Shown here piece by piece: positions 1,413 through 19,756 of a stretch of 64,000 bases of DNA (position 1 is the first letter of the stretch; every line of letters starts with the position of its first letter). This stretch comes from Bacteroidaceae bacterium. Its GTDB lineage: Bacteria; Bacteroidota; Bacteroidia; Bacteroidales; Bacteroidaceae. A model generated the notes under the pieces. That model saw nothing but the letters and a program-made list of their open reading frames with translations, had not been told where the DNA came from and ran no database searches. Made by a program: the position numbers and the translations under genes. The stretch lies in the NCBI GenBank assembly GCA_017938245.1, contig JAGBBX010000049.1, positions 21,902 to 85,901 on the forward strand, written 5' to 3'.

Positions 1413-3071
1413 ATGAGATCGCTTTTTAGTATTTCTATCCTCCTGACAATGTTCGTTTATGCAGGAACTATAAATGCCCAGCGCGCTAATTATGATGTTA
1501 TTCCATTGCCAAAATCGGTGAAGGTCGATTCGGTAAAGGTGTTTAATCTATGCAAGGATGCAGGTGTGGCTTTTGATGCAACTAATCCCGAAGTCTATCG
1601 CAATGTGCTTTTCCTATGTGAGTGGGTCAAAGAGATGACGGGTATTGAGCTTAAACTTACTCCTAATGATAAGAAAGCAGCAATTAAATTCAGCCTCGAT
1701 TATCCGGTGAAGATTGATGCTGCCGAAATAACCGAACAGCAAAAGGAGGCCTATATAATAAAGGTCGATAAGAAGGGTGTCTCTATTATTGCTCGTGAGC
1801 CTGCCGGATTGTTCCGCGCGGCACAGACACTGCGTAAGTCGCTGCCCGTTATAAAGGGTGCTGTCAAGCCGGTAGAACTGCCGTTTGCCGAGATTAAGGA
1901 CGAGCCGCGTTTCGAGTATCGCGGTGTGTTGCTCGATTGCGGACGACACTATTTCTCGGTCGACTTTATTAAGAAATTCATTGATGTGATGGCGCTGCAC
2001 GGTAGCAACCAGTTGCATTGGCATCTTACCGAAGACCAGGGTTGGCGCTTCGAGGTAAAGGCCTATCCTACATTGGCTACGCAGGGTAGTGTACGTGCCG
2101 AGACCGTTATTGGCCCCGGAAACTCGGGAATATACGATGGAGTGCCATACGGTGGATATTATACACAAGAAGAGTGTCGCGAGGTGGTGCGCTATGCTGC
2201 CGAACGCTACGTGAACGTTGTTCCCGAGATTGACCTCCCCGGACATATGCAGAGCGCTCTGCACGTATTTCCACATCTTGGTTGCACCGGTGGTCCCTAT
2301 CCTGTTCGTACCTATTGGGGCGTCAGCCGCGAGGTGCTTTGCGGCGGTAATCCCGAGACACTCACTTTCCTGAAGACCGTGCTAGGTGAGTTGTGCGATG
2401 TGTTCCCCTCGAAGATAATTCATATTGGTGGCGATGAGTGTCCCAAGCACCGATGGAAAGATTGTCCCAAATGTCAGGCAAAAATCAAAGAACTCGGATT
2501 AAAGAGCAACGATAAGCACACTGCCGAGAATCAGTTGCAGAGCTATATAAATCGCGAGGTAGAGGCATTTATGAAAGAGCGCGGTCGCGATATTATCGGT
2601 TGGGACGAGATTCTCGAGGGTGGACTCTCGGGGCGTTCAATAGTAATGTCTTGGCGCGGAATAAAGGGGGGAATTGCTGCGGCGCGTCAGGGGCACAGGG
2701 TTATTATGAGTCCCAATGTATATAGTTACATCGACCATCCTCAGTTGAAGGATTATGGCAAGCAGCCACGTACCACCGACAGCTATTTAGTATCGGCAAG
2801 CAAAGTATACTCATTTGAACCGCTTATCCCCGACAGCCTTACCGCTGAGCAACAGAAATTGATTCTTGGCCCGCAGGTAAACCTCTGGACCGAGCACGTA
2901 GCTTATCCTCAACACGCATTCTATCAGCTTCTTCCGAGACTGGGTGCATCGAGCGAAGTGCAGTGGTGTCTGCCCGAACAAAAAGACTTTGAGCAGTTTA
3001 AAAAACGCCTGCCCCGCCTGAAAAAAGTTTACGATATAATGGGTGTCAACTACTGTAGACAGATAGAGTAG
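1413..3071 (+). CDS. Beta-N-acetylhexosaminidase, glycoside hydrolase family 20
   Basis: A 552-residue secreted enzyme that removes terminal N-acetylglucosamine or N-acetylgalactosamine from glycans by substrate-assisted catalysis. A signal peptide ends at NAQ near residue 23. The GH20b accessory domain covers roughly 25-155 and the catalytic barrel 160-520. The catalytic pair is Asp341-Glu342 in HIGGDECPKHRW. Other family motifs are FEYRGVLLDCGRHYF, EDQGWRFEVK, EIDLPGHMQSAL and IGWDEILEGG. The start at 1413 (MRSLFSIS) gives a proper signal peptide; an in-frame TTG at 1365 would put extra residues before it and overlap the -7 box. Likely periplasmic or surface, for host mucin or N-glycan foraging. 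No partner SusC/D genes are adjacent. Confidence 0.93.
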   Translation: MRSLFSISILLTMFVYAGTINAQRANYDVIPLPKSVKVDSVKVFNLCKDAGVAFDATNPEVYRNVLFLCEWVKEMTGIELKLTPNDKKAAIKFSLDYPVKIDAAEITEQQKEAYIIKVDKKGVSIIAREPAGLFRAAQTLRKSLPVIKGAVKPVELPFAEIKDEPRFEYRGVLLDCGRHYFSVDFIKKFIDVMALHGSNQLHWHLTEDQGWRFEVKAYPTLATQGSVRAETVIGPGNSGIYDGVPYGGYYTQEECREVVRYAAERYVNVVPEIDLPGHMQSALHVFPHLGCTGGPYPVRTYWGVSREVLCGGNPETLTFLKTVLGELCDVFPSKIIHIGGDECPKHRWKDCPKCQAKIKELGLKSNDKHTAENQLQSYINREVEAFMKERGRDIIGWDEILEGGLSGRSIVMSWRGIKGGIAAARQGHRVIMSPNVYSYIDHPQLKDYGKQPRTTDSYLVSASKVYSFEPLIPDSLTAEQQKLILGPQVNLWTEHVAYPQHAFYQLLPRLGASSEVQWCLPEQKDFEQFKKRLPRLKKVYDIMGVNYCRQIE

Positions 3072-19102: not shown

Positions 19103-19193
19103 ATTTTCTTTATTTAGTAATTATCCCTTACTCTTTTTTGGTTTTTCAGGTTACACCGTTGTTCCTCTTGTATGATACTTGGGTAATACACAC

Positions 19194-19343
19194 AAAAAAA
19201 GCGCGGAACATTTAGTGTATTCCCTATCTGAGGTGTTTGGCGTAACCTACTAACAGAACAACTAAATGCCCACGCCAATCCAGCGTGAGCATTCCAGCAT
19301 CATTCACGTTAGTATCTTTTGAGTCGCCAAACTTTCAGATAGG
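19194..19343 (-). ncRNA. Structured RNA element with alternative aptamer-like and terminator folds
   Basis: Read on the minus strand, a closing stem P1 (19325-19343 with 19223-19242), an inner stem P2 (TACTAAC 19248-19254 with GTTAGTA 19308-19314) and a hairpin P3 (19267-19275 with 19283-19291) nest into one domain of about 120 nt. The 3' strand of P3 (19261-19275) can instead pair with 19201-19216 through about 15 pairs and one bulge, directly ahead of seven T (19194-19200). The two folds exclude each other, as in riboswitches or attenuators. No known riboswitch motif was recognised, and no SRP, RNase P or tmRNA signature. It could also be a stand-alone sRNA, including a 6S-type RNA. Confidence 0.6.
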
Positions 19344-19540
19344 ATGAATAAAGCTAAAACGCTTTTCCAATATGTCTAAATGTGCGTATTTTGCTATACG
19401 CTATGCTTCATAGGCAAAATATTTTGTTAATTTAATAAAGTGTAATAGTTCGTAAATTAGGCGATTGCTAAATTTTGTTGGCATTTGTAAACGCTTAAAT
19501 ATGTACGTTGACAAACAAAAATTGTTATAATCGCTGAAAG

Positions 19541-19574
19541 CAAAGTTAGTAAATAATTCTGTATAATTGACAAG
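19541..19574 (-). promoter_or_regulatory. Promoter of the structured RNA / secreted-protein transcript
   Basis: Minus-strand TAACTTTG at 19541-19548, with CTTG at 19571-19574 as a near -33 element (22-base spacing). It would start transcription near 19534, about 190 bases before the P1 stem. The intervening leader can form small hairpins (for example GCGTAT/ATACGC near 19384-19401). Confidence 0.5.
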
Positions 19575-19697
19575 TTCTGTTAGTAATTTTGTAAAATAAA
19601 GAAAAAAGTGCTTGGTTGTCGAAAAATCTACATCCCAAGGTTGCGTCGGTTGGAAGGATTGAATGCCGGATTAGTTGTAAAAGGTCTTCTCTTTATA

Positions 19698-19739
19698 TAA
19701 ACAAATTCCCCACAGCTTCATTTGCTATGGGGAATTGTT
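19698..19739 (-). terminator. Terminator hairpin of rny
   Basis: Long stem between 19698-19715 and 19723-19739 (core ATTCCCCA.AGC / GCT.TGGGGAAT) just past the rny stop, followed on the minus strand by TATATAAAG. Stable hairpin with a weak T-tract. Confidence 0.6.
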
Positions 19740-19756
19740 TATAAGGATATAATCTC

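Follow-up and report, generated by a model that had tools for sequence, protein, structure and literature searches.

A multi-copy RNA element of Bacteroidota read as a four-strand transcription attenuator, with a minimal leader ORF in one Bacteroidales subclass

The window, a 64,000-nucleotide stretch of DNA from a Bacteroidaceae bacterium, carries on its minus strand (19343-19194) a copy of an RNA element found in many copies in the phylum Bacteroidota. The reading favoured here is that of a four-strand transcription attenuator located in 5' leaders of this family and gated by the ribosome in the subclass of the window copy. Its two parts differ in strength: attenuation is likely, and ribosome gating has slightly less than even odds, a ribosome being a more probable gate than a ligand in the window element. 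As far as sequences can tell, the mutually exclusive folds of the element are conserved. The attenuator reading is well supported by this conservation; the output direction and the trigger are not.

The element folds with an MFE of -58.7 kcal/mol, compared with -33.9 +/- 3.4 kcal/mol for 200 dinucleotide shuffles (z -7.3), none of which folds as well. The original prediction, made from the window sequence, had drawn a closed domain of three helices, P1 to P3, and these are found where it placed them (Table 1). Its P1, correctly positioned, is not one helix but two, split by an AA/ACC internal loop; its P2 is called P3 here, and its P3 is the apical stem A:B. The alternative terminator proposed with them is recovered as well: strand B can pair with strand C in a 3:4 stem that has a 44-nt loop and is followed by a U run (T7), and the piece from B to C alone folds at -28.0 kcal/mol. 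Missing from that parts list were two partner strands, F upstream and D downstream, as well as the 5-codon ORF ahead of the element and the multi-copy nature of the latter. The spacing of about 90 nt to the gene is also borne out, the ATG of a 186-aa ORF lying 91 nt past the T run. The protein encoded by this ORF has no Pfam match at E<=1.

Table 1. Features of the element and its surroundings in the window, in the direction of transcription
Feature	Position	Strand	Basis or remark
Candidate promoter: perfect -7 box of Bacteroidota type, TAACTTTG	19541..19548	-	TAnnTTTG match
Imperfect -7 box TACACTTTA, alternative promoter	19436..19444	-	33 nt before AUG
Minimal leader ORF ATG AAG CAT AGC GTA TAG (MKHSV*)	19394..19411	-	conserved TTGCCT precedes
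U strand AATACGCACAT	19380..19390	-	complementary to V, which lies after the T run
F strand (region 1) AAAAGCGTTTTAGCTTTATTC and next few bases	19342..19366	-	partner of A in the alternative fold
P1 5' strand CTATCTGA	19335..19342	-	fold and covariation; partner 19231-19224
P2 5' strand GTTTGGCG	19325..19332	-	fold and covariation; partner 19242-19235
P3 5' strand TACTAACGTGAAT	19302..19314	-	fold and covariation
A strand (region 2) GAATGATGCTGGAATGCTCACGC	19283..19305	-	copy-specific complementarity with B and F
B strand (region 3) GCGTGGGCATTTAGT	19261..19275	-	copy-specific complementarity with A and C
P3 3' strand GTTCTGTTAGTA	19248..19259	-	fold and covariation
P2 3' strand CGCCAAAC	19235..19242	-	fold and covariation
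P1 3' strand TCAGATAG	19224..19231	-	fold and covariation
C strand (region 4) ACTAAATGTTCCGCGC	19201..19216	-	3' half of terminator stem B:C
Seven-T run	19194..19200	-	intrinsic-terminator tail
V strand TGTGTGTATT	19185..19194	-	complementary to U
D strand GGAACA	19160..19165	-	complementary to GTTCC of C
DUF805b-like motif (RF02914)	19125..19159	-	conserved tail of the window's subgroup; 33.9 bits, gathering 35.6
Downstream ORF, 186 aa	18542..19102	-	N terminus signal-peptide-like by eye

The element is widespread across Bacteroidales and thinner across the phylum Bacteroidota. BLAST finds it in 14 of 61 genomes, its own included. A covariance model built from 14 sequences (R1) has matches at E<=0.01 in 32 of the 44 genomes of the genus, with up to 10 per genome, a few of them being the opposite strand of another match. 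Across the order, R1 detects it in at least 118 of 392 genomes and in 71 of 205 genera, a lower bound because of the strict filter. With a second model built from 67 copies (R2) and a threshold of E<=0.001, 55 of 392 phylum genomes have matches, spread over 28 of 179 genera, among them families from beyond the order and beyond the class; R2 also has 13 matches at E<0.001 in the window's own genome. An exact-pattern scan returned at least 117 stretches in genome contigs and a single one in viral contigs. Among the matches listed (80 titles), all but four carry what we take to be Bacteroidales names, the exceptions being two Flavobacterium titles and two MAGs titled Paenibacillus and Limnohabitans. 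These MAG copies (L131 and L154) are probably mis-binned Bacteroidota contigs. Two copies of one contig (G000:C59:1592-1751 and 264392-264551) have an equal score and the same downstream protein and lie near both contig ends; they may be one assembly repeat. In copies L002, L005, L008, L009, L010, L013, L098, L111, L113, L133, L141, L156 and L165, R1 also matches the opposite strand with a shift of about 20 nt, which makes these copies quasi-palindromic. The literature searched (titles and passages) yielded no description of this RNA element, and the family is apparently undescribed so far.

Compensatory changes in the stems, which the original prediction had named among its checks, are strong. 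Both partners vary in 31 of the 36 pairs over 67 sequences, with 584 double-changed cells compared with 172.7 +/- 12.3 after shuffling and a score of 0.658 compared with 0.199, no shuffle out of 500 being as good. This alignment was fitted to the model; in an unfitted MAFFT alignment of 14 sequences, both-side changes occur in 21 of 44 pairs. The sequences of P1, P2 and P3 are wholly different between copies while their pairing is kept. The few constant unpaired residues seen by eye are those of the AA/ACC and UUU/GGU loops, beyond which it is the switching strands that are constant.

Many copies were retrieved with a pattern requiring A, B, C and the T run, hence the mere presence of these strands proves nothing and only copy-specific complementarity counts; the T run itself is evidence for the window and for the BLAST-found copies, being part of the pattern elsewhere. 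Duplex energies of each copy's own strands were therefore compared with those of strands taken from other copies, using 96 of 98 copies (B or the T run could not be located in two). Permutation across all copies gives z -12.8 for A:B, -13.5 for B:C, -10.4 for F:A, -7.4 for U:V and -7.0 for C:D, the controls being F:C +0.4, F:D -0.6, A:D +1.3, A:V -0.4, U:C -2.5, B:D -2.4 and F:B +4.3. When strands are permuted within P2 subfamilies, the five pairings persist (A:B -8.8, B:C -10.2, F:A -8.1, U:V -4.5, C:D -4.4), with controls at -0.4 (U:C), -0.2 (B:D), 0.0 (F:D), +0.7 (A:D), +1.9 (F:C) and +3.2 (F:B). The U:C and B:D pairings were dismissed, as their signals vanish in this second test. A perfect C/D helix of at least six pairs is present in 50 of 98 copies, compared with a mean of 21.6 and a maximum of 30 over 50 shuffles. 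An all-against-all scan of 231 window pairs in the same 96 copies is led by P1, P2, P3, A:B, F:A and B:C; U:V reaches z -5.2, and lesser pairs exist, such as C paired to the segment ahead of it (z -4.3), over a background of 199 pairs after the first 32 with a mean z of 0.3 and an sd of 1.1.

Outside the order, 25 of 47 copies could be used, the 22 others being skipped for want of a B or T run by the pattern, and strands were shuffled across all 25. P1 (z -12.7), A:B (-9.5), F:A (-6.4) and B:C (-4.1) recur in this set, with the controls F:C, B:D, F:B and A:C between +0.2 and +1.4. The C:D pairing is weak there (-2.6), the controls F:D (-2.4) and A:D (-2.0) being nearly as low, and U:V is absent (+1.2). 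The switch or attenuator part of the original prediction is thus supported, A:B and B:C being copy-specific and recurring outside the order. A conserved closing helix F:C gives null results in three permutation tests (z +0.4, +1.9 and +1.0), as do leader pairings with D or C (+1.1, +0.5) and a strand pairing with F in ORF-less copies (z -1.4 to +0.5). A side hairpin of the form GGY-(P2 3' strand)-RCC seemed to covary by eye and was not relied on, its regex tally being noisy. The idea that F is a -7 promoter box was also discarded: F reads GCGTCCGCTT in many copies, and TAnnTTTG boxes sit upstream of it.

Stepwise folding places F:A in the MFE structure of 95 of 96 copies once A is complete and A:B in that of all 96 before C is added, while B:C is in the MFE structure of the F-to-T-run segment in none of the 96. 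At equilibrium, every subgroup mean favours the read-through fold, by about 6-12 kcal/mol (-63.8 vs -53.7 kcal/mol in the window), so that termination would need a kinetic trap, with F:A persisting until C is made. In the proposed mechanism, F would pair with A once A is transcribed, after which B would either take A from F or pair with C. Formation of B:C would create a stem followed by a U run and stop transcription before the gene; formation of B:A would close the long P1-P2-P3-A:B hairpin, leave C without B and let the polymerase read into the gene. The sequences show the pairings, how these are conserved and exclude one another, and the placement ahead of co-directional genes; real termination at B:C with its U-tract and the identity of the default state are inferred. 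In the subclass of the window, a ribosome initiating or terminating at the minimal leader ORF (hereafter mini-ORF) would decide whether F is free as A emerges.

The Bacteroidota promoter consensus is TAnnTTTG/TTTG. In the window, the usual place has an imperfect box and the perfect match is situated farther upstream; the latter fits the promoter that the original prediction had set about 190 nt upstream and is probably the one meant. Boxes at -7 and -33 are mentioned in a passage of PMC7366714. TAnnTTTG-like boxes occur upstream of the ATG in 58 leaders, at 29-41 nt before it in 37 of these 58 (raw count), and the mini-ORF can thus be transcribed in many copies.

A GCC(T/A)ATG-like motif precedes F in most of the 98 copies. 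In all 85 anchored leaders of these 98, an AUG is followed by a stop after zero (10 leaders), one (33), two (19), three (1) or four (22) further codons; ORFs of five codons or fewer are found in 20 and 47 of the 85 when the frame is shifted. For comparison, other upstream ATGs meet a stop within four codons in 76 of 153 cases and within one codon in 21 of 153. A non-redundant set (<60% alike) retains the mini-ORF in 41 of 41 leaders, with zero or one further codon in 29. Of the 13 leaders that were not anchored, seven display an AUG mini-ORF by eye, three have AUA at the usual place and three show none that is convincing. The encoded peptides are varied (M*, MK*, MI*, MV*, MKHSV* and others), with one to five codons and no conserved amino acid; an ORF rich in codons of a regulated amino acid, as in trp-type leaders, was not found among them.

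In the window's subclass, spacing to the RNA is kept for the stop codon and not for the start. For mini-ORFs with zero to four further codons (84 leaders), the stop precedes the model start by 46.8, 48.6, 48.0, 52.0 and 48.5 nt, respectively, i.e., about 48 nt, and in the window it precedes F by 30 nt. Its distance is independent of ORF length (r 0.05), whereas that of the ATG grows with length (r 0.65). With its stop at a fixed distance, the mini-ORF speaks for a ribosome and not for a small molecule, and suggests that what counts is a ribosome parked at termination. Since codon identity varies, what is sensed would be the act of translation (its initiation, termination or recycling) and not a particular amino acid. 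About 30 nt before F is probably too far for direct masking, and the ribosome would therefore either move on after termination or act via U, whose pairing with V must await read-through.

The mini-ORF is a trait of one large Bacteroidales subclass, the window copy included, added to an older or wider attenuator. This limitation follows from the divergent copies, the copies outside the order and the restriction-modification subgroup, which mostly lack the ORF. Among 60 divergent copies (47 outside the order, nine of this genome and four of other genomes of the order), a mini-ORF is found by one criterion in 14, compared with 2-12 of 59-60 in shifted windows; all 14 are outside the order, and none is among the 13 inside it, nine of which belong to this genome. 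In 22 of the 25 copies outside the order, 43-49 nt separate the -7 box from the structure. An ORF would hardly fit there, and the leader of these copies probably begins close to F. By eye, the restriction-modification subgroup is mostly devoid of a mini-ORF, and single further mini-ORF cases were seen in L100, L136, L154 and L200. Copies L125, L182, L184, L188, L198, L202, L204 and L215 form a subgroup with a TAGCATTTTGCTA-type F hairpin, in which the mini-ORF is mostly missing by eye, L215 displaying ATGTAA.

The element has a fixed position before co-directional genes. Out of 118 pattern matches listed, 113 have a downstream ORF, which is co-directional for 108 of them, compared with 85 of 113 for the previous ORF. 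The median distance from the element to the co-directional ORF is 68 nt (108 ORFs within 300 nt). A simple hydrophobicity rule assigns a signal-peptide-like N terminus to 78 of 108 downstream ORFs, kept after removing repeats, ORFs more than 300 nt away and the viral contig, compared with 141 of 611 other ORFs. The downstream proteins differ between copies and are small and often secreted. The upstream neighbours, as read from their translations, vary and presumably include rny, dnaG, uvrA and others. A Pfam search with 90 of the 108 proteins, 18 mostly very short, partial or doubtful ORFs having been left out by hand, returned a heterogeneous set of 72 families without a common pathway; among the best 25 of the 72 are BspA leucine-rich repeats (6), dockerin (5), DNA methylase (3), DUF4595 (3) and ResIII (2). 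In single scans, an EcoRI-type methylase follows the copy in L125, type III or N6/N4 methylases are encoded after the copies of L188, L198 and L202, and the copy in L204 is followed by a ResIII protein. In L080 and L272, both of the window's own genome, the ORF after the T run has by eye the look of a short helix-turn-helix regulator, not of a secreted protein; neither protein has a Pfam match at E<=0.001.

At the Rfam gathering score, the window contains tmRNA alone (190-587 on the minus strand, 124.7 bits). In a relaxed search (E up to 10), the sole strong match near the element is DUF805b (RF02914), which falls below its cut-off and lies between the T run and the ORF. The original prediction recognised no known riboswitch core; the Rfam searches found no family at the element, the DUF805b tail apart. 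The hairpin itself has no credible Rfam family either, in gathering searches of 18 and 16 loci and in an E-value search of 14 loci. The DUF805b motif exceeds its gathering score beside two relatives, L003 (41.7 bits) and L097 (38.8 bits), and in L097 this match (2639-2674, plus strand) comes directly after the element copy, which suggests that RF02914 is a fragment of the element family. The motif is shown by 7 of the 14 loci of the E-value search and lies downstream of the element in L002, L003, L004, L010, L012, L013 and L097. In the window, the 35-nt motif is directly downstream of D; the Rfam model, with its 35 positions, covers the tail of one subgroup and leaves out the upstream hairpin, the terminator and the mini-ORF.

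A ligand-binding riboswitch, in which P1-P2-P3 would be an aptamer and a ligand would stabilise the antiterminator, is unlikely. It would account for the switch architecture and for the small constant internal-loop residues seen by eye, and second-messenger riboswitches likewise stand before many genes. The aptamer part of the original prediction is, however, not supported: its closed domain is a long hairpin whose helices vary freely with compensation and in which no large conserved core is seen; the heterogeneous downstream genes share no pathway, and one subclass has a mini-ORF with a fixed stop distance. Less probable again is a ribosome shunting or reinitiation leader, in which U:V would close the structure after read-through and the mini-ORF ribosome would be passed to the main start. 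This would explain why U:V begins a few nt past the stop codon in the window and why the stop-to-structure distance is fixed, and it resembles the short-ORF/hairpin shunt used by plant pararetroviruses. It leaves F:A, B:C and the U tract without explanation, however, and U:V is not seen outside the order; furthermore, we know of no bacterial precedent for shunting of this type.

Two further readings are very improbable. A free-standing sRNA such as a Bacteroidales 6S RNA, with a long hairpin, a promoter-like bubble and its own terminator, would match the long hairpin with its asymmetric bubble and T-run end, as well as the zapA-rny neighbourhood; 6S RNA and pRNAs have been found in B. thetaiotaomicron, according to a passage of PMC7366714. 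The element is nevertheless not a single-copy, free-standing gene: its relatives adjoin other genes and are not syntenic, the genome has its 13 matches, and the copies keep a fixed cis position before co-directional genes, with alternative folds. The 6S models named in the original prediction's checks were run, and neither RF00013 nor RF01685 (6S-Flavo) has a match in this genome, an absence that weighs little as RF00013 also misses the Bacteroides ihuae control. Equally improbable is a mobile or recombination element (a MITE or an attC-like site) with palindromes acting as DNA. Multiple copies, varied genomic positions and the quasi-palindromic nature of those with antisense R1 matches would be expected of it. 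The copies nevertheless keep their structure by compensatory change rather than their sequence, they are consistently found before co-directional ORFs, and the promoter box has a fixed spacing in the copies outside the order. In addition, a single match was found in viral contigs with one exact pattern, and none in a plasmid search with one Paraprevotella copy (L099).

The attenuator reading has close parallels. Attenuators of the trp/his/ilv type possess a leader ORF and strands 1-4, 1:2 and 3:4 (the terminator) excluding 2:3 (the antiterminator), and the window family follows the same logic, a leader ORF being followed by F:A (1:2), A:B (2:3) and B:C (3:4). In contrast, its leader ORF is one to five codons long, shows no conserved amino acid, stops well ahead of strand 1 and is missing in most divergent copies, and many unrelated genes have the element in front of them. 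For the tetQ leader of Bacteroides, a 3-aa leader peptide is reportedly involved; compared by description only, the two, as Bacteroidota leaders, would share a very short leader peptide and alternative RNA folds. For attenuation in the tetQ leader, a passage of PMC5418344 cites Wang 2005; the tetQ case differs in being translational control of a single gene. The ilvB uORF of Corynebacterium is given as an example of a ribosome-mediated attenuator in a passage of PMC11109978. That source also describes, in part, the fthC motif of Streptococcus, in which a leader ORF and a terminator are combined as in the window family and for which its authors suggest the speed of initiation on the ORF as a possible signal; from that description, the motif is found in Streptococcus only, precedes one gene and has another structure. 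Ribosome-mediated attenuation is thus a known kind of control, the apparently new part being a many-gene, phylum-wide family with a minimal, codon-independent leader ORF; such a many-gene attenuator was not found in the Rfam searches or in the literature searched (titles and passages).

A wider suggestion, which is tentative and rather doubtful, is that of a large Bacteroidota regulon in which many unrelated genes share one attenuator and a Bacteroidales subclass reads translation itself. Such a regulon would comprise mostly genes for surface or secreted proteins and some for restriction-modification. Sensing would rest with a start-stop or near-start-stop ORF and need neither an amino-acid code nor a ligand, and slow termination or recycling, or too few initiating ribosomes, would switch these genes together. 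Few cis-regulatory RNAs of Bacteroidota are, to our knowledge, understood. If true, the attenuator would add a new control layer, with one device for many surface or secreted-protein genes and some defence genes, in a regulon that would span gut and environmental Bacteroidota. The position-fixed stop codon makes sensing by an ORF of one to five codons a directly testable question, and the element could explain Rfam DUF805b as a piece of something larger.

Two other RNA features were observed. A strong symmetric hairpin after rny, at 19687-19752 of the window, has low scores with unrelated Rfam models and is probably the rny terminator. The Bacteroidales-1 RNA (RF01693) has a single match in its genome, at G000:C23:25335-25513 on the plus strand (locus L018), with 118.7 bits.
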